Shown here piece by piece: positions 111 to 32,139 of a stretch of DNA of 34,103 bases. The translations under genes were made by a program, and so were the position numbers. The notes under the pieces were generated by a model that had not been told where the DNA came from, did not search any database, and saw only the letters and a list, made by a program, of their open reading frames with translations. Every line of letters starts with the position of its first letter. Positions within the stretch are counted from its first letter, which is position 1. This DNA is from Desulfovibrio cuneatus DSM 11391 (lineage in GTDB: Bacteria > Desulfobacterota > Desulfovibrionia > Desulfovibrionales > Desulfovibrionaceae). Where the stretch lies: positions 1-34,103 of the forward strand of contig NZ_AUCY01000037.1 in the NCBI RefSeq assembly GCF_000430005.1, written 5' to 3'.

Positions 111-136
111 GCCAAACGGAATAACTGAGCGTTTCC
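111..136 (-). repeat. Family A repeat, single end
   Basis: Read on the minus strand this begins GGAAACGCTC and ends TCCGTTTGGC, matching the right-hand end of the full family A elements with a few changes. On the minus strand it is preceded directly by TAG, as several other ends are. No partner end is visible nearby, so it is a solo end or a decayed element. Confidence 0.6.
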
Positions 137-144
137 CTAAAACT

Positions 145-178
145 ACAAAAGCGCAAAGGATACCCTTTGCGCTTTTGT
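145..178. terminator. Perfect 15-bp hairpin, probable terminator
   Basis: ACAAAAGCGCAAAGG pairs perfectly with CCTTTGCGCTTTTGT around a 4-base loop. The A-rich and T-rich ends of the arms resemble a bidirectional intrinsic terminator. It probably ends a gene lying left of the window. No long T-tract follows on the + strand. Confidence 0.55.
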
Positions 179-432
179 GAGTGAGCTGGACACCCGGCAC
201 TACCGTTACCGTTGCTTTCTTTCGAACCTGGCGGAATTGGCGGCGCAACCGCCGCCCAGCTCGAGAAAGGCTATACCCCCACACCGCGGCCCTGTCAAGC
301 AACATGTGTTCATCAGGCTACGGGGTGCCTGCCACCCTACCCCTTGCCATTTGCCAGAAAGGCCCTCTTCCTGTACCATGCAGCTACCAAAACACATTGC
401 CCCCTTTCCCCTTTAGCAGGAATTGCAGCATT

Positions 433-3789: not shown

Positions 3790-3835
3790 GAACGATTCTC
3801 CTGGGGTAAGGGAAGTACCGAATACGGTTCTCCAG

Positions 3836-4064
3836 GGAAACGCTGATTTATTCCGTTTGGCGGCGTTGCTTCATTTTTTTTGAAACAGTCGAGGACGAAA
3901 GAGTTGACTCGGCCCTTCCTTGGCCTCGGCCTTCGGCTCCCGCCCTTTGGGCGGTTCCCAATTCCGCTATCCTGCGAAATTGTCACTCCTGCTTCAAAAA
4001 AAGCTTGCGCCTTGCCAAACGAAATAACTACGCGTTTCCAAAATGGCAATTAATCAGTGGTTCT
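3836..4064 (-). repeat. Family A palindromic element, copy 1 (long form)
   Basis: The element is 229 bp. On the minus strand it runs AGAACCACTGATTA, then ATTTTGGAAACGCG, a central stretch with TTTTTTTGAAGCAGGAGTG, and finishes with the inverted end that reads GGAAACGCTGATTTATTCCG on the plus strand. It matches copies 2 and 3 but has about 78 extra bases in the middle, including a CCGCCCAAAGGGCGGG hairpin. It is flanked by the direct repeat CCAG (3832-3835 and 4065-4068). The match can be read outward as an 11-bp repeat, GGTTCTCCAGG, at 3826-3836 and 4059-4069. Terminal inverted repeats, small size and lack of a gene fit a MITE-like element. Confidence 0.75.
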
Positions 4065-4069
4065 CCAGG

Positions 4070-9653: not shown

Positions 9654-9679
9654 GTCAAACGGAATAACTGAGCATTTCC
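9654..9679 (-). repeat. Family A repeat, single end next to the amrA ribosome site
   Basis: On the minus strand it begins GGAAATGCTC and ends TCCGTTTGAC, one more copy of the family A right end. It lies in the 253-base gap before amrA, which otherwise holds nothing I recognise. Its outer edge is about 3 bases from the AGGAGG of amrA, so a hairpin or insertion here would directly affect translation start. Confidence 0.55.
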
Positions 9680-13040: not shown

Positions 13041-13066
13041 GGAACCGTTGATTTATTCCGCTTGGC
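13041..13066 (+). repeat. Family A repeat, single end
   Basis: GGAACCGTTGATTTATTCCG followed by CTTGGC differs from the family A right end at only a few positions. It is preceded by TTTA. It lies about 155 bases before full copy 2 and may be the remains of an older element. Confidence 0.55.
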
Positions 13067-13220: not shown

Positions 13221-13371
13221 GGAAGCACGGATTACACGACATTTTGGAAACGCGCAGTTATTTCGTTTGGCAAGGCACGAGTTTTTTTTGAAGCAGGAGT
13301 GGACTCTTCCGTCCTCGACTGTTTCAAAAAAAGTGAAGTAACGCGGCCAAACGGAATAAATCAGCGTTTCC
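13221..13371 (+). repeat. Family A palindromic element, copy 2
   Basis: The element is 151 bp. It begins GGAAGCACGGATTA, has ATTTTGGAAACGCGCAG and the central GAAGCAGGAGTGGACTC, and ends with AATCAGCGTTTCC. It is nearly the same as copy 3. Flanks are TTAG (13217-13220) and TTAA (13372-13375), an imperfect direct repeat. It ends only 6 bases from the stop codon of the TPR gene and forms a large stem, so it may serve as that gene's terminator or RNA 3' end protector. Confidence 0.75.
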
Positions 13372-21350: not shown

Positions 21351-21770
21351 ATGCTTACCGTTGCAGAAATAATGAGCCACCAGCTTATCACCCTTTCCCC
21401 ATTTGAATCTGTACAAACAGCACGCACCCTTATGGAACGGGCACGTATACGCCACCTGCCACTTGTCACAGATAATGGCCAGTTTGTTGGCATTGTGACC
21501 CAGCGTGATATTTTCCAGGTAGCCGTTTCTCAACTTGCCGACCTGCATGAAACAGAACAGGAAGCCATTGAAGCGGCCATTCCCCTGGAACGCATCATGC
21601 GCACTGAAATTCTTACCATTCCCCCCAGCTACCCGGTTACAGAAGCAGCCCGCCTGCTGCTGGCCCACAAGTTTGGCTGCCTGCCAGTGCTGGAACGCGG
21701 TGTGCTTAAAGGAATTTTAACAGAATCCGACTTTGTTTCCCTGGCGCTTTCACTGCTGTTGCAGTGTTAA
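21351..21770 (+). CDS. CBS-domain pair protein
   Basis: This 139-residue soluble protein consists of two CBS domains and nothing else: the first begins AEIMSHQLITLSPFESVQTARTLM and the second IMRTEILTIPPSYPVTEAARLLL. Such pairs bind adenosine nucleotides or S-adenosylmethionine and often act as energy sensors or regulators of partner proteins. The start has AAGGAAA upstream. No partner domain is fused, and the partner is unknown. Its stop codon TAA (21768-21770) is directly followed by a degenerate family A end. It precedes the M23 peptidase gene by 308 bases, so co-transcription is uncertain. Confidence 0.9.
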   Translation: MLTVAEIMSHQLITLSPFESVQTARTLMERARIRHLPLVTDNGQFVGIVTQRDIFQVAVSQLADLHETEQEAIEAAIPLERIMRTEILTIPPSYPVTEAARLLLAHKFGCLPVLERGVLKGILTESDFVSLALSLLLQC

Positions 21771-21796
21771 GAAAACGCCGCTTTATTCCACTTGCC
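21771..21796 (+). repeat. Family A repeat, degenerate single end at a stop codon
   Basis: GAAAACGCCGCTTTATTCCA followed by CTTGCC matches the family A right end with several changes. It starts at the base right after the TAA stop of the CBS gene. It is one of three family A ends that begin directly after a stop codon in this window. Confidence 0.45.
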
Positions 21797-22078
21797 TGAC
21801 AAAACTCTTTTGCCCTGCCTGCACTGCCCACGGGTACCAGGGAGGGCATTTAATTTCACGTTGCAGTTACCTTGGTGCCCACAAGCCCCATGCGGCAAGT
21901 AGGACACTCCTCTTGACAGGGGAGACAACCCCACCTATTGACATGAAGGCTTGGCAAGTGCACACAAGATGCCACCGAACAAAATATACTCCCTTAAAGA
22001 TACCATACAACATGCAGCACCATGCTTGGCTGGTAACACTTCCCTCCACAGTTTATCATTTCAGGTAAAGGCACGCAT
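21797..22078. other. Intergenic region before the M23 gene
   Basis: No gene is visible. Together with the repeat end at 21771 the gap is 308 bases. A TTGACA at 21913-21918 and TATTGA at 21936-21941, spaced by 17 bases, form a possible sigma-70 promoter. GGGTACCA and TGGTGCCC (about 21835-21880) could pair as the base of a leader structure, but I cannot name any riboswitch or small RNA. Confidence 0.45.
21913..21941 (+). promoter_or_regulatory. Possible promoter of the M23 peptidase gene
   Basis: A perfect -35 hexamer TTGACA is followed after 17 bases by TATTGA, a partial -10. It lies 137 bases before the start at 22079. A second TTGACA overlaps the -10 (from 21938) without a good partner. 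Confidence 0.35.
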
Positions 22079-23548
22079 ATGAAGAGAAAGAGTCAGTTGG
22101 CGTACAGTGTTTTCCTCGCTATTGTGGTCTGCGCATGCATTGCGGCAGGGTACCTTTTTTTCAAAGACTCCACCCCCCCCACCATTGCGCTGCTCCCTGA
22201 AACTCAGGTTGTTTCCACCAGCATGCCCTTTACCCTGCAACTGCATGACGAAGGTTCCAGCGTAAAACGGGTTTCCATTGTAGCCAAATGGGGCGACCGC
22301 ACCCTGCCTGTGCTGGAAGAAAATTTCCCTTCCGGTGCCAACACCCAGGAACTTGCCTTCAGCCTGAAAGATGTGGGCCTGAAAGACGGCACCCTGGAGC
22401 TGATTGTTACCGCCACAGACAGCGCCCGCTTTGGCATTGGCAACAGCCAAACAGTGCAACGCACCATTACTATTGACAATACCCCGCCGCGGGTTACCGT
22501 GAAAACCAGCCCCCCTAACGTGCGGCGCGGGGGCAGTGCCGCCATTTTATATTCCGTAAGCAAGGAAGTAAGCCAAACCGGGGTAAAGGCCAACGGACTG
22601 TTTTTCCCTGGGTTCCGGCAGGAAAATGGAGATTACCTGTGTTTTTTTGCCTTTCCCCACTTTGCCACCATGGAAAATTTTACCCCTGAACTGGTGGCCG
22701 TAGACGTGGCGGGCAACGCTCGCATCGTGCCCCTGACAGTGAACAAAATATTCCAGGAGTTCAAGAAGGACACCATTCCTGTTACCCAGAACTTTCTGGA
22801 TAAAAAAAACGAAGAATTTCACAAAATTCTTCCCAGCACCTTGTCCCCCGTTGAGCATTTTATCGCCATTAACCGTGATGTACGCTTGGCAAACACCCAG
22901 GCACTTATGGAAATAGGCCGCCGCACCAGTGCCGATATTTTGTGGAAAGGCGCATTTCTTGCCCTGCCGCGTGGGGCTGTGCGTGCCCTGTTTGCCGAAC
23001 ACCGCACCTACATGTGGGAAGGCAAAGAAGTGGACCAGCAAACCCACCTAGGGTACGACCTTGCTTCCACTGCCAACGCGCCTGTGCCTGCGGCAAACTC
23101 TGGCAAGGTTGTGTTTGCCGGGTACCTGGGCATTTACGGCAACCTTGTGGTTATTGACCACGGCCTGGGGCTGCAAAGCCTTTACTCCCACCTGTATGAA
23201 ATTCGGGCGACTGAAGGACAAACCGTAAACCGGGGTGACATTATTGGCCTTACAGGCATTTCAGGCATGGCCCTTGGGGACCACCTGCACTTTGGCATTC
23301 TTATGTCCGGGCTGGAAGTAGCCCCGCTGGAATGGCTGGACGCAGGCTGGATACGCGACAATATTATTAAACGGGTGAAAGAAGCAGGGGGGAACCTGCC
23401 TGCCTTTACCCTGCCTGCCAATGCCACAACAGGCGCTGCGGGTGCCACAGCCACAGGCAGTGCTGCTGCACAAGGCAAAAAAAAGAATGCTGCCAGGGAA
23501 AAAGCACAAGGGAAAAAGCAGGGCAAAACCAAAGAAAAAAGACGCTAA
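22079..23548 (+). CDS. M23 (LytM-type) peptidoglycan peptidase, membrane-anchored
   Basis: This 489-residue protein has an N-terminal membrane anchor (about residues 8-28), a long periplasmic region with two Ig-like or Big-type beta segments (TPPTIALLPETQVVS and TPPRVTVKTSPPNVR), and a C-terminal LytM domain. The zinc-binding motifs are complete: His323 and Asp327 in THLGYD, and His402 and His404 in GDHLHFG. It is therefore likely an active endopeptidase that cuts peptidoglycan cross-links, or a related activator in cell division or envelope building. The last 45 residues are a Lys/Ala-rich tail (KKKNAAREKAQGKKQG), which is uncommon and may bind cell wall polymers. The start has AAAGG upstream. 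A shared terminator follows. Confidence 0.92.
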   Translation: MKRKSQLAYSVFLAIVVCACIAAGYLFFKDSTPPTIALLPETQVVSTSMPFTLQLHDEGSSVKRVSIVAKWGDRTLPVLEENFPSGANTQELAFSLKDVGLKDGTLELIVTATDSARFGIGNSQTVQRTITIDNTPPRVTVKTSPPNVRRGGSAAILYSVSKEVSQTGVKANGLFFPGFRQENGDYLCFFAFPHFATMENFTPELVAVDVAGNARIVPLTVNKIFQEFKKDTIPVTQNFLDKKNEEFHKILPSTLSPVEHFIAINRDVRLANTQALMEIGRRTSADILWKGAFLALPRGAVRALFAEHRTYMWEGKEVDQQTHLGYDLASTANAPVPAANSGKVVFAGYLGIYGNLVVIDHGLGLQSLYSHLYEIRATEGQTVNRGDIIGLTGISGMALGDHLHFGILMSGLEVAPLEWLDAGWIRDNIIKRVKEAGGNLPAFTLPANATTGAAGATATGSAAAQGKKKNAAREKAQGKKQGKTKEKRR

Positions 23549-23676
23549 CAAGGAACAAAGGCAACTACTGCCCTAAAGCAAAAAACGGCTGAAACAAGTT
23601 TCTTGCCGCGTACTCGGCGTAGGTGAGCAGCGCTCGCCCTTAAGTGACTATTGCAAGTGGTAAATGGCATAAGAAA

Positions 23677-23721
23677 CCCCCGGCACAATGCCTGTTATGA
23701 AACAGAGCACGGTGCCGGGGG
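23677..23721. terminator. Shared terminator of the M23 and first ilvE-like genes
   Basis: CCCCCGGCAC and GTGCCGGGGG form a perfect 10-bp stem around a 25-base loop. On the plus strand it is followed by CTTTTATTTT and on the minus strand by TTTCTTAT. It lies between the converging genes ending at 23548 and 23762, so it can end both. Confidence 0.85.
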
Positions 23722-23761
23722 CTTTTATTTTACAGTGAAAAGGCGGGAACTTAGCGCTACC

Positions 23762-24850
23762 CTACTTTGCGTAGTGCGGAATCTTCATCAGCCAGCCTTC
23801 AGGGGCAGGGTGCTTTCCTGTTTGCATACCAGTGTACATTTCATACAGGGCACGGGTGTGCTTGCCAATGGCCCCATCACCCACGGTAATTTCTGTGCCA
23901 TCTTCCAAAATGTATGTGCCTGCCGGGCTAATTACCGCAGCGGTGCCAAACCCGCCAGCTTCAATAATCTCGCCGGAACGCAGACCTTCCAGAAAATCCT
24001 TGAAGAGAATACGCTCCTGCCGGGCCTTGATTTTGCCCGCAGCAGCAAGTTCCAGCACAGAACGTGAGGTGATGGACTTCAAGATAGAGTTAGTGAATTC
24101 AGGAATAATAAACGTTCCATCCTTAAGCACATGGAAGTGGTTCATTATGCCGGCTTCTTCAATGTAGGTATTGCTGGCATCCAGGTACAGCACCTGCGCA
24201 GCCCCTTGGGAGCGGGCATAGTCGCCTGCACGCATGGAGGCAGCATAGTTGCCACCAGCTTTGGCGTTGCCTGTTCCGCCGGAAACCGCCCGGTGAAAAC
24301 TGGTGCTGATGAGCAGCTTGATGGGCTTGGAAAAGCCCCCGGGATAATACGGCCCGCTGGGGGAAAGCATAATACAGTAGCGGTAGTTCACACTTGGGCG
24401 AATGGAAAGGGCGTCTTCCGTGGCGAACATGAAAGGCCGAATGTATATGGAACATTCATCTTCATGGGGGCAGAACGTGCGGTCCAAATCCATCAGGCGC
24501 AAGAAGCCTTCCACTTGCAACTCCACCGGAATGGGAGGCATTTGCAAAATAACAGCAGAATCGTTAAGACGCTCCGCATTTTTATCAAAGCGAAAGGCAT
24601 ATACGTCGCCATTGCCATGGCGAAAAGCCTTTCCCCCTTCAAACAGGGTTTGCCCGTAATGGAAGCACAAGGCACCTGGAGCTATGGAAAAGTCGGCATA
24701 AGGAACGATACGCGCGTCTTGCCATTCTCCATTTTTATAGTCCGCAACAAATATATGGTTTGTTCGTGCTGCACCAAACCCAAGGTTGTTTGAGTCTGCC
24801 ACGGGCTGTTTACATTGACATTCAGGGCATAATTCATAACGGATGGTCAT
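23762..24850 (-). CDS. ilvE: Branched-chain aminotransferase, paralogue 1
   Basis: This 362-residue pyridoxal-phosphate enzyme is a class IV aminotransferase of the longer, eukaryote-like BCAT group. It should interconvert leucine, isoleucine and valine with their 2-oxo acids, using glutamate. The cofactor lysine is Lys197 in NAKAGGNYAAS. Other marks are FEGGKAFRH, YIRPFMFATE, and SILKSITSRSVLELA with EEAGIMNHFHV. It starts at 24850, after GAGGAG; the frame is open to 24961. It carries an N-terminal cysteine cluster CPECQC (8-13) that its neighbour lacks. It is the downstream member of a tandem pair: 121 of the first 200 residues are identical in an ungapped alignment with the second copy, so they arose by duplication or separate transfer. 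Confidence 0.92.
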   Translation of the reverse strand: MTIRYELCPECQCKQPVADSNNLGFGAARTNHIFVADYKNGEWQDARIVPYADFSIAPGALCFHYGQTLFEGGKAFRHGNGDVYAFRFDKNAERLNDSAVILQMPPIPVELQVEGFLRLMDLDRTFCPHEDECSIYIRPFMFATEDALSIRPSVNYRYCIMLSPSGPYYPGGFSKPIKLLISTSFHRAVSGGTGNAKAGGNYAASMRAGDYARSQGAAQVLYLDASNTYIEEAGIMNHFHVLKDGTFIIPEFTNSILKSITSRSVLELAAAGKIKARQERILFKDFLEGLRSGEIIEAGGFGTAAVISPAGTYILEDGTEITVGDGAIGKHTRALYEMYTGMQTGKHPAPEGWLMKIPHYAK

Positions 24851-24960
24851 GGCCGGCTCCTCTTTTTCTAAAAAATTTCGCACAAGACTACGGCTGGGCC
24901 GCAAAACCTGCGATGTACTAATGCTGGGTTGGGCAAAGCCACCCGCACCCTCCACCCTCA

Positions 24961-24976
24961 CTCCACGGCTCGCTAT
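24961..24976 (-). repeat. Motif C repeat, copy 2
   Basis: The minus strand reads ATAGCGAGCCGTGGAG, an exact copy of positions 28-43. It lies between the two aminotransferase genes, about 35 bases from a family A end (25013-25037). Confidence 0.55.
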
Positions 24977-25012
24977 ACGCGCAATTGCCGTTGGAATTCA
25001 AAGCTTACACCA

Positions 25013-25037
25013 CCAGACGGAATAATGCAGCGTTTCC
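25013..25037 (-). repeat. Family A repeat, single end at a stop codon
   Basis: On the minus strand this reads GGAAACGCTGCATTATTCCG and then TCTGG. It begins at the base directly after the TAG stop of the second aminotransferase gene (stop codon at 25040-25038). Confidence 0.6.
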
Positions 25038-26135
25038 CTACCCCTCAGTGTGGGGGTAATGGGGCACCTTTTGCATCCATCCCTTGGGGGCTGGTGTGCT
25101 GCCACGCTGCATGCTGGTCATGTGTTCATACACAAAGCGAGAATGCTTGCCAATTTTCCCATCAGCCACAGTAATTTCCGTACCGTCTTCCAGCAAGTAG
25201 CTGCCCACAGGGCTAATTACCGCTGCTGTGCCTACACCGCCAGCTTCAATAATTTCACCGCTCTTGATACCGTCAATAAACTCGGCAATGGCTACTGGTT
25301 CTTGCCGGGCCTTAATAAGCCCCTGTTCAGCCAGTTCCAGCACTGAAACTGCGGTTATGGAGCGTAAAATGCTGTCGGTAAACGGCGGAATAATGAAGGT
25401 ACCGTCTTTAAGCACGTGGAAGTGGTTCATGGCGCCAGCTTCTTCAATATGCGTGTTGGCCGTGTTCAGGTATAATACCTGTGAGGCGCCACTCTTTTTG
25501 GCAAACTGCCCGGCCCGTAAGGAAGCTGCGTAGTTGCCCCCGGCCTTGGAAGCCCCCATGCCCCCTGGGGCTGCACGGTGGAAACTGGTGCTGATAAGCA
25601 ACTTTACCGGGCTTGAAAAGCCCCCGGTGTAATACGGCCCACTAGGGGAAAGGAACACACAGAACGTGTATTCATTGCTGGGGCGCACACCAAGGCAGTC
25701 TTCAGTGGCAAACATGAAGGGGCGGATATAGAGGGAAGACTCTGGCTGTGTGGGGCAAAAGTCTCTGTCTATGTCAATAAGGCGATGAATTGCTTCCAAC
25801 TGCATGGCAGCATCAATTTGCGGCATGCACAAAACATCGGCAGAAAAGTTGAACCGTTCTGCGTTTTTGTCCAGCCTGAAGGTGTAAATTTCACCATCGG
25901 CGTGTTTAAAAGCCTTGGCACCTTCAAAAAAGTTTTGAGAATAGTGTAAACACATGGCTCCTGGCCCCATACACAAGGGGCCATAAGGCACAATGCGGGC
26001 ATCTTGCCAAACTCCGTCTTTGTATTCGGCCAGAAACATATGGTTTGTGCGACGAATGCCAAACCCAAGTTCCTCACCCGGTGCGGGCTGCACTTTACGT
26101 GCGGCAGGCGCACACTGTTCATAACGGATCTTCAT
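25038..26135 (-). CDS. ilvE: Branched-chain aminotransferase, paralogue 2
   Basis: This 365-residue enzyme is the upstream copy of the tandem BCAT pair and has the same layout. The cofactor lysine is Lys197 (ASKAGGNYAAS), with YIRPFMFATE and EEAGAMNHFHV conserved. It differs in the N-terminus (CAPAARKVQPAPG) and in substrate-pocket neighbours such as LCMGPGAMCLHYSQNFFEGAKAF. It might prefer a different branched-chain or aromatic substrate, or be expressed under other conditions; this is inference. The start at 26135 has AGGGAG about 9 bases upstream. The 187-base gap to paralogue 1 holds only repeats and a Shine-Dalgarno site, with no terminator, so both may be on one mRNA. Confidence 0.92.
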   Translation of the reverse strand: MKIRYEQCAPAARKVQPAPGEELGFGIRRTNHMFLAEYKDGVWQDARIVPYGPLCMGPGAMCLHYSQNFFEGAKAFKHADGEIYTFRLDKNAERFNFSADVLCMPQIDAAMQLEAIHRLIDIDRDFCPTQPESSLYIRPFMFATEDCLGVRPSNEYTFCVFLSPSGPYYTGGFSSPVKLLISTSFHRAAPGGMGASKAGGNYAASLRAGQFAKKSGASQVLYLNTANTHIEEAGAMNHFHVLKDGTFIIPPFTDSILRSITAVSVLELAEQGLIKARQEPVAIAEFIDGIKSGEIIEAGGVGTAAVISPVGSYLLEDGTEITVADGKIGKHSRFVYEHMTSMQRGSTPAPKGWMQKVPHYPHTEG

Positions 26136-26556
26136 ACAAAAAAACTCCCTGGCTAGATGTCGCACAAGCTACCCCACTTGCCCTATGGACGCTTTGGGGC
26201 TTTCTTGGTAAAATTCCTTTTTTCCAGCAAGTTGTCAATACGTCTGGCGCTGTAAAGCGTGCTTGGCCAGTATTTTCTCATAATACGCCCAGCATGTGCT
26301 TTTATTCACTACTTCAGCCGTTGCATTCAAAAAAGGTCACACCACAAACGACAATTCAAACCAGATCGCTAACACGCTTAAAAATAAAGACATTTCGCAA
26401 AACACCCGGTGAAGGCATATCGTTACAGAGTAATTCACCTGTGCCCCCGGTTGACCATTCAGGAATAAGGCATATTTTTGAGCAACAAGGGCCATGCCAC
26501 CCTGGCTACGCGTGCCGCATGATACTGTTACTGTATAGAGAAAACCAAGGAGCACT
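26136..26556. other. Divergent promoter region between ilvE copy 2 and the GT9 gene
   Basis: This 421-base gap lies between divergent genes and is more AT-rich than the genes. On the minus strand a TTGACA at 26238-26233 with an AATTTT about 17 bases on could drive the aminotransferases. On the plus strand TATAGA near 26535 might be a -10 for the GT9 gene, but its -35 is poor. I found no T-box, leader peptide or attenuator typical of branched-chain amino acid control. Confidence 0.45.
26210..26238 (-). promoter_or_regulatory. Possible promoter of the aminotransferase pair
   Basis: A perfect TTGACA (26238-26233, minus strand) is followed after 17 bases by AATTTT, a weak -10. It is about 75 bases before the translation start at 26135. 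Confidence 0.35.
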
Positions 26557-27624
26557 GTGGATAATTCGGAATTACACGCACAGGCACGCCACTGCAAGCA
26601 CTGGCTTGTGGCCCGGCTTGGGCACTTGGGGGATGTAGCCCTTACCACGGGCGTGCTACGCTGGTGGGGCGAGCGCTATGGCCTGCGCTTCCACGTGCTC
26701 ACCAAACCCGCCTGGGCCCCCCTGTTTGCCCACCACCCCCATGTAGAGCGCGTGGTGCCGTTTCCTGAATTTGCCCACAGTGCCAGCGGGGCCATTCCCT
26801 TTTTCCATGCCCTTGCCAAAGAATACACTGGTTGGGGCTTTGCAGACCTGCACGGTGTGCTCCGCACCCGTGTGTTGAGTGCCTTGTGGCATGGGCCTGT
26901 GGCAAGGTACCCCAAAATGGGTTTGCAGCGCAGGCTGTTCATGGCTTTTGGCGTGCAAAGCATGGGGCAGGCCCTGCGGGCCATGAACGTTCCCCAGCGC
27001 TATAGCCTTACCCTGCAAAACACGCCCCCCCCTGCGCAAAGCCTTCTGCCCCAAGTGTGGCTTACCCCGGAAGAAAGCGCCACTGCACGTGCCACACTGG
27101 ACACAGTGCATGCAGCAGGCATGAAAGGCCTCCCCCCCGCCGCACCCATTGCCTTGCACCCCTTTGCCGCCCACCGCTGGAAGACATGGCCGGAACACAC
27201 ATGGCGCACACTGGCCACCTTGCTGCGCCAAAGCGGCATACCCTTTATTGTGCTGGGCCAAGGCACCCCCCTGTTGCCTAATGCGCCGGAAGATTTGGTG
27301 AACAACACCACACTGCGCGAAACGTGCGCACTGCTGGGGCACTGCCGCTGCCTGATAACAGGCGACTCCGGCCCCATGCACCTTGCCAGCGCTGTGGGTA
27401 CCCCTGTGGTGGCCCTGTTTGGCCCCACCACCCCGGAATGGGGCTTTTACCCTGCCGGGCCGCACGACACAGTGCTGGAACGCCCCCTGCCCTGCCGCCC
27501 TTGTTCCTTACACGGCAAGGGCACCTGCCCCAGGAATGGACAATGCCTGCAAGACATTGCTCCGGAAGAAGTGGTTGCCTGTGCCCTGCGCCTGCCCCTT
27601 CAGCCCCGCCAAAGCCAGGAATAG
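26557..27624 (+). CDS. Glycosyltransferase family 9 (heptosyltransferase-like)
   Basis: This 355-residue enzyme has the GT9 fold used by ADP-heptose:LPS heptosyltransferases. The N-terminal half has VARLGHLGDVALTTGVLRWW (acceptor side loop). The donor-binding motif is GDSGPMHLASAVGTPVVALFGPT (from residue 269), with GFYPAGP following. It probably adds heptose or another sugar to the LPS core at the inner membrane's cytoplasmic face. A cysteine pair CRPC and further cysteines lie near the end, as in many members. The start is a GTG at 26557 with a strong AAGGAG site at ideal spacing. The next gene starts two bases after its stop, so they form an operon. Confidence 0.9.
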   Translation: MDNSELHAQARHCKHWLVARLGHLGDVALTTGVLRWWGERYGLRFHVLTKPAWAPLFAHHPHVERVVPFPEFAHSASGAIPFFHALAKEYTGWGFADLHGVLRTRVLSALWHGPVARYPKMGLQRRLFMAFGVQSMGQALRAMNVPQRYSLTLQNTPPPAQSLLPQVWLTPEESATARATLDTVHAAGMKGLPPAAPIALHPFAAHRWKTWPEHTWRTLATLLRQSGIPFIVLGQGTPLLPNAPEDLVNNTTLRETCALLGHCRCLITGDSGPMHLASAVGTPVVALFGPTTPEWGFYPAGPHDTVLERPLPCRPCSLHGKGTCPRNGQCLQDIAPEEVVACALRLPLQPRQSQE

Positions 27625-27626
27625 CC

Positions 27627-28292
27627 ATGCAAAGCGCCAAACGGTTACGCTCTGACCTCTACTTTACCCCCCGCCCCCAGGAAGGAGACACCCTGGAAGA
27701 AAGCCTGTTGGCCCGAAAGCAGCAACATGCGGCACAATTTGCAGAAGAAGAGGCTCGCTTTGCTGCTGCCCTGGCCGCTGCTGCACGGCCAGACGCTTCC
27801 CTGGTAAACAGCAAACTGCTGCTGGAAGGATTGCTGCGCCAAGTCCCCTGGCTACCTGCGCACATTACTTTGCCGGAAAAAACAGCCCCACTGGCCTTCC
27901 CCCTGCCGCCAGAACCACTGCTTGCCCCGGAAGCCAGGGAATGCCTTGAAAGCGCCCCGGAAGAAGAACGGCAAAAATTAGGCCACATTCCCCTGGAACC
28001 CGAAGAAACACGCACGGAAGACGGTGTGCCCAACTGGATTTCCATTCACAGCCTCTATAACCCGGAAGAAAAACGCAGGCATTTGGAAAAAGAGGACGTG
28101 CGCCAAACAGGCAGTGCCAGGGAAAAAATACGCAATTTATGGGCAGACTCCACCCCGCCGCTCCTGCCGGAACAGAATGACAACCCATTGCAAATTACCT
28201 GGGGGGTGCGGCTACGCCAGTTAATTTGGTGGGTGGTGCTGGCGGGCGCAGCAGCAGTGCTGATTAAAGGAAAAGGGTGCGGCGTGCTGTAG
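27627..28292 (+). CDS. Tail-anchored protein of unknown function
   Basis: This 221-residue protein is mostly hydrophilic and rich in Glu, Ala and Pro, with an alpha-helical stretch at about 35-60 (AEEEARFAAALAAAARPD). A single hydrophobic segment lies close to the C-terminus (LIWWVVLAGAAAVLIKG, about 198-215), so it is probably a tail-anchored inner-membrane protein with its bulk in the cytoplasm. WISIHSLYNPEEKRRHLEKEDV (139-160) looks like the most ordered part. I do not recognise a family. The ATG at 27627 lies two bases after the GT9 stop, with CAGGA upstream, so it is translated with the glycosyltransferase and may recruit it to the membrane; this is inference. Confidence 0.8.
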   Translation: MQSAKRLRSDLYFTPRPQEGDTLEESLLARKQQHAAQFAEEEARFAAALAAAARPDASLVNSKLLLEGLLRQVPWLPAHITLPEKTAPLAFPLPPEPLLAPEARECLESAPEEERQKLGHIPLEPEETRTEDGVPNWISIHSLYNPEEKRRHLEKEDVRQTGSAREKIRNLWADSTPPLLPEQNDNPLQITWGVRLRQLIWWVVLAGAAAVLIKGKGCGVL

Positions 28293-28324
28293 GCACAGCC
28301 TGTAAAAGTAGCCCTTTGCCCTTG

Positions 28325-28340
28325 CTCCATGGCTCGCTAT
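28325..28340 (-). repeat. Motif C repeat, copy 3
   Basis: The minus strand reads ATAGCGAGCCATGGAG, one base different from the copies at 28-43 and 24961-24976. A family A end follows within 4 bases. Confidence 0.5.
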
Positions 28341-28343
28341 GTT

Positions 28344-28368
28344 GGCAAACGGAATAAATTGATAATCC
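28344..28368 (-). repeat. Family A repeat, degenerate single end
   Basis: GGCAAACGGAATAAATTGAT on the plus strand matches the inner part of the family A right end; the outer part is worn. It lies between the tail-anchored protein gene and the FMN reductase gene. Confidence 0.45.
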
Positions 28369-28496
28369 ATGCCCTTATGTGCGCTACCGCACAGACACAG
28401 CCCTTGCTTCATTATATTATCCCTGCATGAATATATCCTCAGTGTACCCTCATGCATGCGCACGGTAGCCCCTTCACCGTGAAGCAAGGAAACTAT

Positions 28497-29060
28497 ATGA
28501 AAATGACTATACCAGTTGCCGTACTCGTTGGCAGCCTTCGCAACGAGGCATATTCAACCAAAATGGCCCATGCTTTTCTGGCGGCAGCCCCGCCTGAATT
28601 TACCTTAGAAATTATGCCTCTTGGCCAATTACCCCAGTACAATGAAGAATTAGATGCCAAAGAACCATCCCCCCTGTGGGTGGCATTTCGTGAACAGGTG
28701 GGGGAAGCAAAAGCCCTGCTGTTTGTGACTCCGGAACAAAACCGTTCCATCCCTGCGGTGCTGAAAAATGCACTGGATGTTGCCTCGCGTCCATATGGAC
28801 ACAACCGCTTCAACGGCAAGCCTGGTGCCGTGGTAAGCACTTCCATTGGAGCCATTGGGGGCGTTGGCGCCAACCACCATTTACACCAATCGCTCATAGG
28901 CCTGAACGTGCCCCTTATGCAACAGCCTGAAGCCTCCCTTGGGGAAGTAGACAAGTTTTTTGATAACCTGGGAACTCCCTTGACCGCCTGCGGTGAATAT
29001 GCAGCCGCATTCATGAAAACCTATGCACAATGGGTCCACACCATACTCAGTACGCGCTAG
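28497..29060 (+). CDS. NAD(P)H-dependent FMN reductase
   Basis: This 187-residue flavodoxin-like protein belongs to the NADPH-dependent FMN reductase family (ChrR/YieF type). The FMN phosphate loop is VGSLRNEAYST (11-21), and the second signature is TPEQNRSIPAVLKNALDVASR, where the usual tyrosine in PEYN is a glutamine. It should reduce flavin, quinones or metal ions such as chromate with NAD(P)H in the cytoplasm. The start at 28497 has AAGGA at 6-base spacing. The stop codon TAG is part of the CTAG that begins a family B element, so the true ancestral C-terminus might have been a little different. Confidence 0.9.
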   Translation: MKMTIPVAVLVGSLRNEAYSTKMAHAFLAAAPPEFTLEIMPLGQLPQYNEELDAKEPSPLWVAFREQVGEAKALLFVTPEQNRSIPAVLKNALDVASRPYGHNRFNGKPGAVVSTSIGAIGGVGANHHLHQSLIGLNVPLMQQPEASLGEVDKFFDNLGTPLTACGEYAAAFMKTYAQWVHTILSTR

Positions 29061-29165
29061 AACAATTTCACGTTGAAATTGCTCGGTGGCAGCGTTGCTG
29101 CCAGCCGCGGAGCATGTCGTTGTATTATGGTATAAATATATCCTTTCAAAGATAAACTGCTTTAG
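29057..29165. repeat. Family B palindromic element, copy 2
   Basis: This 109-bp element starts with CTAGAACAATTTCACGTTGA and has a near-perfect hairpin at 29060-29084. It shares GAGCATGTCGTTGTATTAT-like sequence with copy 1 (GAAGCGTGTCGTTTTATT) and ends with CTTTCAAAGATAAACTGC and TTTAG, an imperfect inverted copy of the left end. The first TAG is the stop codon of the FMN reductase gene. It may act as that gene's terminator. Confidence 0.55.
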
Positions 29166-29217
29166 GGAAACAATTCAATCACCCCACCAGCCAGGTGGGC
29201 ATAAAAAAGGACAAGTC

Positions 29218-29676
29218 ATGTATGAATGGCTTACTGAACCGCGAATAGCCTGGTTTTTATTTGGCCTGGCCCTGATGCTGGGTGAAGTGCTCATGCCAGG
29301 CATTGTGCTGCTGTTTTTTGGTGTGGGGGCATGGACTGTGGTAATCTCCCTCACTATTATTCCCTTTGGGCTTACCATGCAACTTACCCTGTTTATTATT
29401 GCTTCCTTTGCCTTCCTGGCATTGTTCCGTTCGCGGGTGGAAGCGCTGTTTCGCAGCAAAGGCCTGCACCTGAACAACTCTTCCACCTCTTTGCAACATG
29501 AAACCGTTGGGCAGGAAGTAGATGTGGTGGAAGCCATTACCCCCCCACACCCGGGGCGGGTGTTATTGCACGGAACGCTGTGGCAAGCCAAAGCCACGGA
29601 ATTTATTCCCGTGGGCAGCCGGGTACGTATTATCAGGCAAGAGGTGTTGCTACTCACCGTTAAACGCCTTCCCTAG
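29218..29676 (+). CDS. NfeD-like membrane protein
   Basis: This 152-residue protein has three to four N-terminal membrane segments (about 9-65: WFLFGLALMLGEVLMPGIVLLFFGVG) and a C-terminal OB-fold domain (about 90-150: GRVLLHGTLWQAKATEFIPVGSRVRII), the layout of short NfeD (NfeD1b/YbbK partner) proteins. Such proteins are nearly always encoded with an SPFH protein, as here, and are thought to form membrane complexes with it. The ATG at 29218 follows AAGGA. The frame is open to 29086 upstream, but that part is family B repeat. The stop TAG is directly followed by a family A end. Confidence 0.92.
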   Translation: MYEWLTEPRIAWFLFGLALMLGEVLMPGIVLLFFGVGAWTVVISLTIIPFGLTMQLTLFIIASFAFLALFRSRVEALFRSKGLHLNNSSTSLQHETVGQEVDVVEAITPPHPGRVLLHGTLWQAKATEFIPVGSRVRIIRQEVLLLTVKRLP

Positions 29677-29703
29677 GGAAACGCTGATCTATTCCGTTTT
29701 GCC
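29677..29703 (+). repeat. Family A repeat, single end between nfeD and SPFH genes
   Basis: GGAAACGCTGATCTATTCCG and then TTTTGCC start at the base right after the nfeD stop codon. The sequence is close to the family consensus. It occupies half of the 57-base gap between two genes that should be co-transcribed. Confidence 0.65.
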
Positions 29704-29733
29704 TACTCTTTCCTTCAACCATCTGGAATTTTT

Positions 29734-30666
29734 ATGAATACATCCACTGGCTACATTATTCTTGGCGGACTTGCGCTTTTTACCATTACCCTGTTCCTGA
29801 AATGCATCCTTATTGTTCCGCAGAAAAAAGCCACCATTATTGAGCGCTTGGGGAAGTATTCCGGCACGTTGCTGGCTGGATTTCATCTGCTTGTACCCTT
29901 TATAGACCGGGTGGCCTATGTGCATACCCTCAAAGAACAAGTGATTGATGTGCCCCCGCAAACCTGCATTACCAAAGATAATATTCAGGTGGAAGTAGAC
30001 GGCGTGCTGTATGTGCAAGTAATTGATGCAGAACGTGCCAGTTACGGCATAGACGACTACTACGCTGCGACCATCAACATGGCCCAAACCACCATGCGCA
30101 GCATTCTTGGCCAAATGCAACTGGACAAAACGTTTGAAGAGCGCAGTGAAATCAACCATGGCATTGTCAAAGCCCTGGATGAAGCTTCCGCCCCATGGGG
30201 CACAAAAGTAACGCGCTATGAAGTAAAAAACATCATTCCGCCCCCCAGCATTAAGGATGCCATGGAAAAATACATGCGGGCAGAACGGGAAAAACGCGCC
30301 CTCATTGCTGAATCAGAAGGCATCAAGCAGGCAGAAATCAATAAGGCGGAAGGAGAGCGCCAAGCGGTGATAAACCGTTCGGAAGGGGAAAAACAGCGCA
30401 GAATTAACGAGGCCGAAGGGCAGTCGCGGGAAATAGAGCTGGTGGCAAAGGCCACGGCAGAGGCCCTGCTCATTGTTTCCCAGGTGGCAGTAAAACCCGG
30501 TGGCCTGGATGCTGTTTCACTGCGCATTGCGGAAAGCTATATCAAAGAGTTTGGCAAACTTGCCAAGCAAAACAATACCATGATTGTGCCAACAAACCTG
30601 GCTGATATTGCTTCCATGATCGGCATTGGAGCAAAAGCCTTGCAGGCCAGCACTTCACGCCCATAG
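29734..30666 (+). CDS. SPFH/stomatin-like membrane protein (paraslipin)
   Basis: This 310-residue protein has an N-terminal membrane segment (about 3-27), then the SPFH domain (GKYSGTLLAGFHLLVPFIDRV, VIDVPPQTCITKDNIQVEVDGVLY), ending near residue 190. A charged helix follows (about 175-245) with repeating AEGE/SEGE units typical of paraslipins and QmcA. It should form oligomeric rings in detergent-resistant patches of the inner membrane and scaffold proteases or other proteins. The start at 29734 has only GGAA as ribosome site. It lies 57 bases after nfeD, as expected for the pair. A strong terminator follows at 30748. Confidence 0.93.
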   Translation: MNTSTGYIILGGLALFTITLFLKCILIVPQKKATIIERLGKYSGTLLAGFHLLVPFIDRVAYVHTLKEQVIDVPPQTCITKDNIQVEVDGVLYVQVIDAERASYGIDDYYAATINMAQTTMRSILGQMQLDKTFEERSEINHGIVKALDEASAPWGTKVTRYEVKNIIPPPSIKDAMEKYMRAEREKRALIAESEGIKQAEINKAEGERQAVINRSEGEKQRRINEAEGQSREIELVAKATAEALLIVSQVAVKPGGLDAVSLRIAESYIKEFGKLAKQNNTMIVPTNLADIASMIGIGAKALQASTSRP

Positions 30667-30692
30667 CAGTGAATGAAGCAAAACGAGTGAAC

Positions 30693-30720
30693 ACGCTGAT
30701 TTATTGGCATTAATCAGCGT
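30693..30720. repeat. Hairpin built from family A end sequence
   Basis: ACGCTGATTTATTGGC and ATTAATCAGCGT form an inverted repeat whose arms match the CGCTGATTTATT part of family A in both directions. It may be a collapsed element with its centre deleted. Confidence 0.45.
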
Positions 30721-30747
30721 CACGCTGCCTAGCACTCGCCATTTACA

Positions 30748-30778
30748 AAAACACCCCGGAAGTTGTTCCGGGGTGTTT
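30748..30778. terminator. Bidirectional terminator between SPFH and Crp/Fnr genes
   Basis: AAACACCCCGGAA and TTCCGGGGTGTTT form a perfect 13-bp stem with a 4-base loop. On the minus strand TTTTTG follows. It lies between the converging genes ending at 30666 and 30795. Confidence 0.85.
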
Positions 30779-30794
30779 GTTATGGGGGATAAGC

Positions 30795-31520
30795 TTATGA
30801 AGCAAGACCCCCAACAGGGGGCAACAAGCGGTCTGTTTCCCGTTTTACTACGGCATAGCATTCACAACACAGCGTTTCCAGCTTGGTACGGTCCAGCACC
30901 GTAATTTTCCCGCGACTATAGGCTATTACGCCCAGCTTTTGCAGCTTGCCCGCAGCTTCCGTAACGCCCTCACGCCGCACCCCAAGCATGTTGGCAATCA
31001 GTTCCTGGGTCATTACCAGCCTGTTGCTTGGCAGCCTGTCCAGGGAAAGCAGCAACCAGCGGCACAGTTGCTGGTCAATAGAGTGGTGGCGGTTGCACAC
31101 AGCGGTTTGGGCCATTTGGGTGATCAGCGACTGGGTGTAGCGCAGCATAAGGTGCAGCATTTCCGGGTGCTCTTCAAAGGCTTTTTTAAACCGCTGGCTT
31201 GAAAGGCGAAAGGCGTGCCCCGCACTTTGCACAATGGCCCTGCTGGGGGTACTCTCCCCCCCCATGAACAGGGAAATGCCCACAATGCCTTCCCTGCCAA
31301 TAACAGAAATTTCGGCAGAAGAACCATTCTGCATAACATACAAAAGCGATACAATGCAATCCACCGGAAAATAAACATAAGACATAATGTCGCCAGATTC
31401 ATACAACACCTTTCCCAGGGGCATCTTCACCAATTCCAGGTGCGGCAGCAGAGACTGGTACAAAGAAAGGGGCAATGCTGCTAAAAGTTGGTTTTGCCGA
31501 GCTTCCAATTGTTCCCGCAT
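30795..31520 (-). CDS. Crp/Fnr-family transcription regulator
   Basis: This 241-residue protein has an N-terminal cyclic-nucleotide-binding-type beta barrel (MPLGKVLYESGDIMSYVYFP ... ISVIGREGIVG), a long dimer helix (about 110-145), and a C-terminal winged helix-turn-helix (168-192: LVMTQELIANMLGVRREGVTEAAGKL). It lacks the N-terminal cysteines that hold the FNR iron-sulfur cluster, so oxygen sensing of that kind is unlikely. Near the end is CCEC (218-221), often seen in this subgroup. The ligand is unknown. The start at 31520 has an excellent AAGGAG site; an upstream extension to 31667 is open but Cys-rich and not family-like. It stands alone. Confidence 0.9.
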   Translation of the reverse strand: MREQLEARQNQLLAALPLSLYQSLLPHLELVKMPLGKVLYESGDIMSYVYFPVDCIVSLLYVMQNGSSAEISVIGREGIVGISLFMGGESTPSRAIVQSAGHAFRLSSQRFKKAFEEHPEMLHLMLRYTQSLITQMAQTAVCNRHHSIDQQLCRWLLLSLDRLPSNRLVMTQELIANMLGVRREGVTEAAGKLQKLGVIAYSRGKITVLDRTKLETLCCECYAVVKRETDRLLPPVGGLAS

Positions 31521-31728
31521 GTCACACTCCTTTTTGCTATAATGAACCTGTCTCCCATCTACCTGGGCACCCCAGCAGGAAACCACCCATGCAGGCATCA
31601 CAGCACAAACACATGCCAACGTAAACGTTATGAACAAAATGCCACAACTGAAGCAGCAACATAGCAAAAACGTCCGCTCACTCTTTTTAGAGGAGCGGCC
31701 GCTCTATTTTACCTCTGAAGTAGTTCTG

Positions 31729-31752
31729 GGAAAACGCTCGTTCATTCCACGC
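31729..31752 (+). repeat. Family A repeat, degenerate single end
   Basis: GGAAAACGCTCGTTCATTCC and then ACGC resemble the family A right end with several changes. It lies only 8 bases before full copy 3, so a newer element may have inserted beside an older one. Confidence 0.45.
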
Positions 31753-31759
31753 TTTCTTA

Positions 31760-31909
31760 GGAAGCACTGATTAAATGGTATTTTGGAAACGCGCAGTTAT
31801 TTTGTTTGGCAAGGCGCGAGCTTTTTTGAAGCAGGAGTGGACTCTTCCGTCCTCGACTGTTTCAAAAAAAGCGATGCAACGACGCCAAACGGAATAAATC
31901 AGCGTTTCC
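31760..31909 (+). repeat. Family A palindromic element, copy 3
   Basis: The element is 150 bp. It begins GGAAGCACTGATTAAATGG, continues ATTTTGGAAACGCGCAG and GAAGCAGGAGTGGACTC, and ends AATCAGCGTTTCC. It differs from copy 2 at only about ten positions in the 125-bp core. It is flanked by a perfect 4-bp direct repeat CTTA (31756-31759 and 31910-31913), which looks like a target-site duplication. It holds no gene. Confidence 0.8.
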
Positions 31910-32139
31910 CTTACTAATTTATATACTTTACGCTGGGGGGGGCATACCGTCAACGTCTATTATTTCTCCGTAAAGCAAGGAAAACATTCTCCCCATGCTG
32001 CACAACCTGGCACGCTTCCACCGGGGCCATTGCAACCACTGCCCCCTTGCCATAAGCTGCCAAATTTGCCAAAAGAATAACACTGAATGTTGCTGCTTTA
32101 CTCTCTTTCATTGCTCAATACAAAAGGAGTTTCCCTATA

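Follow-up and report, generated by a model that had tools for sequence, protein, structure and literature searches.

In the genome of Desulfovibrio cuneatus DSM 11391, a short repeated DNA hairpin with two unlike ends, called here the head and the tail, is found at hundreds of sites, very often immediately past the stop codon of a gene, with the head almost always turned towards the stop. The element was recognized in the window, i.e., the whole stretch of 34,103 nucleotides (nt) that was analysed (contig NZ_AUCY01000037.1 of assembly GCF_000430005.1, positions 1 to 34,103), and was followed in the source genome of the window (G000, 3.36 Mb in 76 contigs) and in related genomes. Among the ends that face a stop codon in the part of G000 that was sampled, 54 of 94 heads are flush with it (distances 0 to -2) versus 1 of 36 tails (p = 1.3e-9). 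Both the excess at stop codons and the polarity of heads and tails exceed what chance and target preference explain. The initial annotation of the window had described repeat ends beginning behind stop codons, and had considered either a preference for TAR-type targets or a selected mRNA 3'-end signal; the polarity, which is the main point of the present analysis, was absent from it.

Repeats that hug stop codons are already known, e.g., the repetitive extragenic palindromes (REPs) and the BOX elements, and the novelty lies in the combination of two distinct ends, a target duplication and a head/tail polarity of 54:1. For symmetric repeats, insertion and selection are hard to separate at stop codons, whereas two distinguishable ends together with a duplication allow the orientation to be scored for each copy. 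In this respect, a polarity of 54:1 makes it possible to tell target preference apart from other forces and offers a natural test of the role of structure directly behind the stop on bacterial mRNA. No description of this repeat family, or of a head/tail polarity at stop codons, was found in the open-licence papers searched, which were represented mostly by the beginnings of their abstracts.

Structure of the Element and Its Target Site

The consensus derived from the alignment of 18 complete copies comprises 151 nt and contains no transposase gene. Its head reads GGAAACGCTGATTTATTCCGTTTGGC whereas its tail, read inward, consists of GGAAGCACTGATTAAATGGCATTTT and then of an internal copy of the repeat that resembles the head. 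The outer ends GGAAACGCTGATTTA and GGAAGCACTGATTAA form imperfect terminal inverted repeats, and central inserts give rise to longer forms of about 228 and 326 nt. With up to 3 mismatches allowed, the 26-nt end motif gives 436 matches in the genome, heads and inner tail repeats being pooled, versus a single match for the reversed pattern. Since the true pattern gives 113 matches and the reversed pattern none at up to 5 mismatches in 434 kb, the end matches are not due to chance. The repeat is short, devoid of transposase and present in many copies, and corresponds to a non-autonomous DNA transposon resembling the miniature inverted-repeat transposable elements (MITEs). The RNA of the complete copy 13221..13371 (minus strand) is predicted to fold with -46.4 kcal/mol (z -4.2). 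On the tail-first strand of the consensus, reading reveals an ATG 15 nt in, with an open frame across the remainder of the element; this ATG occurs at that position in only 32 of 86 tails and is probably meaningless.

Complete copies are flanked by a 4-nt duplication in 16 of 76 cases in G000 versus 5.9 expected from shuffled partners, most copies of this genome no longer showing it. The corresponding values reach 10 of 23 versus 2.4 in Desulfovibrio sp. MES5, and 11 of 20 versus 3.1 in the related genome G004. Taken together with the patchy occurrence among relatives, these duplications suggest that the element is mobile. The 37 duplicated sites yield a palindromic consensus, T-YTAR-A, and are mostly YTAR, so that TAA and TAG stop codons preceded by C or T are valid insertion sites. 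YTAR is found at 240 of the 914 stops called in 1.23 Mb of G000, which also contain 1500 free intergenic YTAR sites. Owing to its symmetry, the target cannot set the orientation of head and tail, and the target motif is ruled out as the origin of the polarity. The TAR-type preference proposed initially is therefore borne out as to the target, but leaves both the polarity and, as shown below, most of the excess unexplained.

Position and Polarity at Stop Codons

The initial annotation had suggested tabulating the distances of all copies from the nearest stop codon against intergenic placement, and this was done on 1.23 Mb of G000 (37% of the genome), a sample that is not random, some stretches having been chosen with knowledge of the match list. 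The gene calls came from a simple purpose-written program based on codon usage, no official annotation being used. With a profile threshold of E<1e-3, the sample contains 161 elements, with 135 heads, 86 outer tails and 76 elements possessing both. Forty-two of the 135 heads (31%) begin at distance 0 from a stop codon on the same strand, versus 6.9% expected under YTAR targeting with random orientation (p = 4e-17) and 0.2% under plain intergenic placement. Other heads are located at -1 or -2 (12), -4 (1), -11 (10) and +1 to +6 (13), and no stop-facing head occurs at +7 to +20. Only 1 of the 86 tails (1.2%) is found at distance 0, too few with respect to the YTAR expectation (p = 0.016), and 2 are found at -11. 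A pattern-based count on 834 kb, the only one to include three short flush copies of the window that fall below the profile threshold, agrees with these values (distance 0 in 32 of 108 heads and 1 of 38 tails). At the ten heads located at -11, the called gene ends at the TGA of the element itself (head nt 9-11), which may supply the stop or shorten the protein.

The polarity persists among ends preceded by YTAR, 30 of 49 heads being flush versus 1 of 33 tails. Complete copies that are not flush comprise 20 of the '<<' and 12 of the '>>' type. Away from stops, the orientation thus does not track transcription, which ties the polarity to the stop itself. The gene downstream of a flush copy is convergent or codirectional in a ratio of 13:39, compared with 202:694 in general, and the similarity of these proportions indicates that the decisive factor is the upstream gene, over a distance of a few bases from its stop. 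An outward promoter serving the downstream gene is ruled out on the same ground, convergent genes being as common behind flush heads as they are overall. A step in GC content is present at flush sites, but was set aside as the source of the polarity because, away from stops, it predicts the orientation poorly (25 versus 19 copies). Flush and other heads are equally diverged (identity 0.909 versus 0.922, p = 0.62 for nt 0-26; p = 0.68 for nt 26-46), and no difference in age or conservation at stops was detected.

The two orientations differ by their predicted fold. In head-first copies, a stem starts from the first base past the stop, whereas tail-first copies expose some 25 mostly unpaired nt. 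Over the first 25 nt after the stop, the calculated mean unpaired probability amounts to 0.18 head-first and 0.57 tail-first for 44 copies of G000, and to 0.21 and 0.56 for 28 copies of MES5.

Occurrence in Other Genomes

The element was detected in 4 of 59 genomes, namely G000, G004 and G011 from the same genus and G031 from the same family; no other genome of the genus that was searched contains it, 12 of 14 relatives of the same genus being without the element. An exact-match scan of named genomes retrieved Desulfovibrio sp. MES5, Im510_bin30 (G004), UBA930 (G011) and a TD116 bin. In MES5, 48 head matches were counted at up to 3 mismatches (control 0). The aminotransferases of the genus are only 60-65% identical, yet heads can be identical, which indicates either a transfer of the family between lineages or a recent spread. 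The copies of MES5 look young, with 23 of 48 matches exact and the duplication intact in 14 of 28 copies (7 of 11 among the flush ones).

The excess of flush heads recurs in two of these genomes. In G004, which possesses its own subfamily, distance 0 occurs in 6 of 28 heads (p = 0.013 versus its YTAR expectation) and 0 of 21 tails; among the ends facing stops, 6 of 18 heads and 0 of 13 tails are flush (p = 0.03). In MES5, distance 0 occurs in 10 of 32 heads (p = 8e-4 versus the YTAR expectation) and 1 of 29 tails, and 11 of 20 heads versus 2 of 12 tails facing stops are flush (p = 0.06), a polarity weaker than that of G000. With respect to the orthologues of the window genes, a head was found directly behind the stop of none of the 22 genes examined, which comprise 16 aminotransferases, all 3 NfeD genes found, and the 3 best CBS genes from matches in 16 genomes. 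In the relative G007, GGAAACACTGAT is located 20 nt past the aminotransferase stop.

Possible Origins of the Polarity

The favoured explanation, which could as easily be right as wrong, combines transposition into YTAR with a selection on the upstream mRNA that depends on the orientation. The element would insert into YTAR and duplicate it, and an insertion at a TAA or TAG stop preceded by C or T would leave the protein intact. Selection on the mRNA of the upstream gene would then sort the copies that persist and would be the cause of the polarity. In head-first copies, the stem beginning at the first base past the stop would leave little unpaired RNA at that place. In tail-first copies, the 25 or so mostly unpaired, AU-rich nt past the stop could act as an entry site for RNase E, by analogy with the enterobacterial repetitive intergenic consensus (ERIC), for which a review states that it depends on the orientation whether the upstream mRNA is destabilised via an RNase E site (PMC2229807, section 10). 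RNase E may accordingly be the agent, head-first copies at stops being retained and tail-first copies lost.

Several observations weigh against this explanation. The equal divergence of flush and other heads gives no sign that selection keeps the former longer or purges others slowly, and to account for an excess larger than YTAR targeting predicts, the loss of most other intergenic insertions has to be assumed in addition. One form of harm is also unsupported: re-initiation at the tail-first ATG located 15 nt past the stop was rejected as a candidate, this ATG being kept equally in both contexts (13/36 versus 19/50). Moreover, the sharp edge observed in G000 is not general, as five heads of G004 lie at +10 to +17 and two heads of MES5 at +9, and 2 of the 12 stop-facing tails of MES5 are flush. 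Finally, no autonomous partner with the same ends was found among the PF01609 and PF05598 transposases, the only ones searched, in draft assemblies that may lose copies of insertion sequences (ISs).

The main and serious rival, less probable than selection on the mRNA, assumes that the polarity is set at insertion, by a complex with unlike ends that reads an asymmetric feature of the 3' end of genes, such as the GC step or a DNA state linked to translation, stop codons being oriented hot spots. It stays a serious rival because no difference in divergence separates flush from non-flush heads. The excess already occurs in MES5 in spite of the apparent youth of its copies, head flanks are somewhat GC-richer than tail flanks even away from stops (30 nt: 0.504 versus 0.449, p = 0.043; 20 nt: p = 0.071), and the codon-usage score is higher in flush genes (0.185 versus 0.156, p = 0.007). 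However, the target motif is symmetric, the GC step is a poor predictor away from stops, and the polarity is lacking in 3' regions more than about 20 nt from the stop, though transcription passes there too.

A more far-reaching form of the selective account, which we consider rather doubtful, would make of the transposable hairpin an oriented 3' module, whose stem, in head-first copies, closes off the mRNA from the first base past the stop and shields or tunes expression, the other orientation being removed. Such a module would reach up to about 6% of the genes (54 of the 914 sampled stops) and, if it existed, the translation-termination site of the host would shape the distribution of a transposon throughout the genome.

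It is unlikely that the head represents a domesticated signal of the mRNA 3' end, e.g., a terminator, a processing site or a stop-adjacent regulator, whose sequence is kept by selection. The excess and polarity at stops, the stable fold (z -4.2) and the persistence of short head-only remnants at stops of the window agree with such a signal, and PMC12306157, citing Liang et al. 2015, reports reduced translation when a REP is located less than 16 nt from a stop. However, heads at stops show no extra conservation (p = 0.62), and a terminator scan of 21700-32000 gave no site within the element copies of that stretch, none of which displays the GC-rich stem and T-run of an intrinsic terminator. In addition, native terminator-like hairpins, identified by eye, still stand behind some flush copies, and none of the 22 genes of relatives possesses a head directly behind its stop. 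The mRNA 3'-end signal proposed initially is thus retained in part: a polarity limited to the final translated bases is indeed an argument for the mRNA, but a sequence-specific signal is unsupported. A milder, structure-based selection on the mRNA is possible.

Preference for YTAR alone, with random orientation and a neutral fate of the copies, is very improbable: it accounts for the YTAR duplications and draws on the 240 of 914 stops that are YTAR, but predicts 6.9% flush heads versus the 31% observed, and equal numbers of heads and tails versus 54 and 1 flush, which contradicts it in G000. An artefact of the purpose-written gene calls or of the sampling can practically be dismissed in spite of the lack of official annotation and of the stretches chosen with the match list in view, considering that the peak falls precisely on distance 0 rather than on the offsets next to it, that identical gene calls give 1/86 flush tails, that flush genes of at least 300 nt have a median length of 916 nt, and that the trend recurs in G004 and MES5.

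Relationships with Known Repeats

IS5 duplicates a 4-nt YTAR target, as stated in a passage of PMC10359306. The element resembles IS5-type elements and their MITEs by its 4-nt YTAR duplication and by being short, transposase-free and abundant, but differs by its two unlike ends and strict polarity at stops. No IS5-type transposase bearing these ends was found in a host genome: PF01609 gave 0 matches in G000 and G031 and 1-3 each in G004, G011, MES5 and TD116, and PF05598 gave 0 matches in G000, G004, G011 and G031. Seven PF01609 loci were scanned for the end motif (up to 1 mismatch), and the two located near the motif both lie beside an IS with other ends. By reading, the ISs with a DDE_Tnp_1 match close to an element end at L282 1-860 and L284 1090-1975 (G011 and G004) have other ends, the IS of L282 being inserted at CTAA directly beside an element tail. 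A scan of the sample for a long head-tail pair forming an autonomous element returned one candidate pair, 3388 nt apart.

REPs occur near the 3' ends of open reading frames (ORFs), and the GTAG at REP termini often provides the TAG stop (excerpt of PMC3733652). The element is similarly palindromic and close to the 3' ends of ORFs, but it is 151 nt long versus 20-40 bp for REPs, and it possesses a target duplication. Its heads are mostly preceded by YTAR, GTAG being found in 3 of 94, and it lacks the GTAG (or CGTC) tag beside a 20-40 bp hairpin that is typical of REP/RAYT systems. In Streptococcus pneumoniae, 36 coding sequences end inside a BOX, which provides the stop codon (PMC3049150, in part); likewise, the element supplies a TGA in 10 of 135 heads. 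In contrast, BOX is built from the boxA-B-C modules and has another sequence, and the portion of PMC3049150 available does not mention a head/tail polarity of BOX at stops. ERIC/RU-1 (127 bp) of enterobacteria is a MITE of similar length, but its sequence and target differ from those of the element. A resemblance to the attC sites of integrons was also considered, but was dropped on account of the scattering of the copies on both strands beside ordinary genes.

Copies in the Window

The coordinates of the copies and isolated ends are collected in Table 1.

Table 1. Copies and isolated ends of the element in the window.
Feature	Position	Strand	Context
Short head remnant	21771..21796	+	Abuts TAA 21768-21770, the stop of the CBS-domain gene (PF00571); begins GAAAACGCCGCTTTATTCCACTTGCC; 4 mismatches to the head motif
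Short head remnant	25012..25037	-	Abuts TAG 25038-25040 (minus), the stop of the second class-IV aminotransferase gene (PF01063); GGAAACGCTGCATTATTCCGTCTGGT from 25037; 2 mismatches
Short head remnant	29677..29702	+	Abuts TAG 29674-29676, the stop of the NfeD-domain gene (PF01957); GGAAACGCTGATCTATTCCGTTTTGC from 29677; 2 mismatches
Complete 151-nt element	13221..13371	-	Head at 13371, 6 nt past TAA 13378-13380 (minus) of the TPR gene; flanks TTAG / TTAA
Complete element, away from stops	31760..31909	-	4-nt duplication CTTA at 31756-31759 and 31910-31913
Longer form, extra hairpin-rich insert in the middle	3836..4064	+	4-nt duplication CCAG at 3832-3835 and 4065-4068
Head after a non-coding TAG (137-139)	111..136	-	Downstream of the small signal recognition particle RNA gene
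Isolated head-like end	9654..9679	-	CTGG in front; 2 mismatches
Isolated head-like end	13041..13066	+	CTTTA in front; 3 mismatches

The heads described initially behind the stops of the CBS, second aminotransferase and nfeD genes were read letter for letter at these places, and the complete copy announced six bases past the stop of the TPR gene is located there. The end at 111-136 is indeed preceded by a TAG, as had been noted, but this TAG ends no gene. The gene upstream encodes the small bacterial signal recognition particle RNA (RF00169, 50.5 bits; 177-265, minus strand), behind which come a terminator-like hairpin, identified by eye, and then the head of the element. RF00169 is the only Rfam family that reaches its gathering score in the window, the copies of the element being without match.

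The two adjacent class-IV aminotransferase genes (23762-24961 and 25038-26165, minus strand) apparently result from a tandem duplication. The second one encodes a C-terminus a few residues longer than in relatives, which end soon after KVPRY-like letters. A second repeat family, characterized by GACGGCAGTCGCGAGCGTAGCGAGCCGTGGAGCGAGGG, is found in the window at 13-71 and 24933-24991. The sample of 1.23 Mb contains 52 copies of it (reversed control 0), and 28 of these are located inside, or at most 330 nt from, a head of the element.

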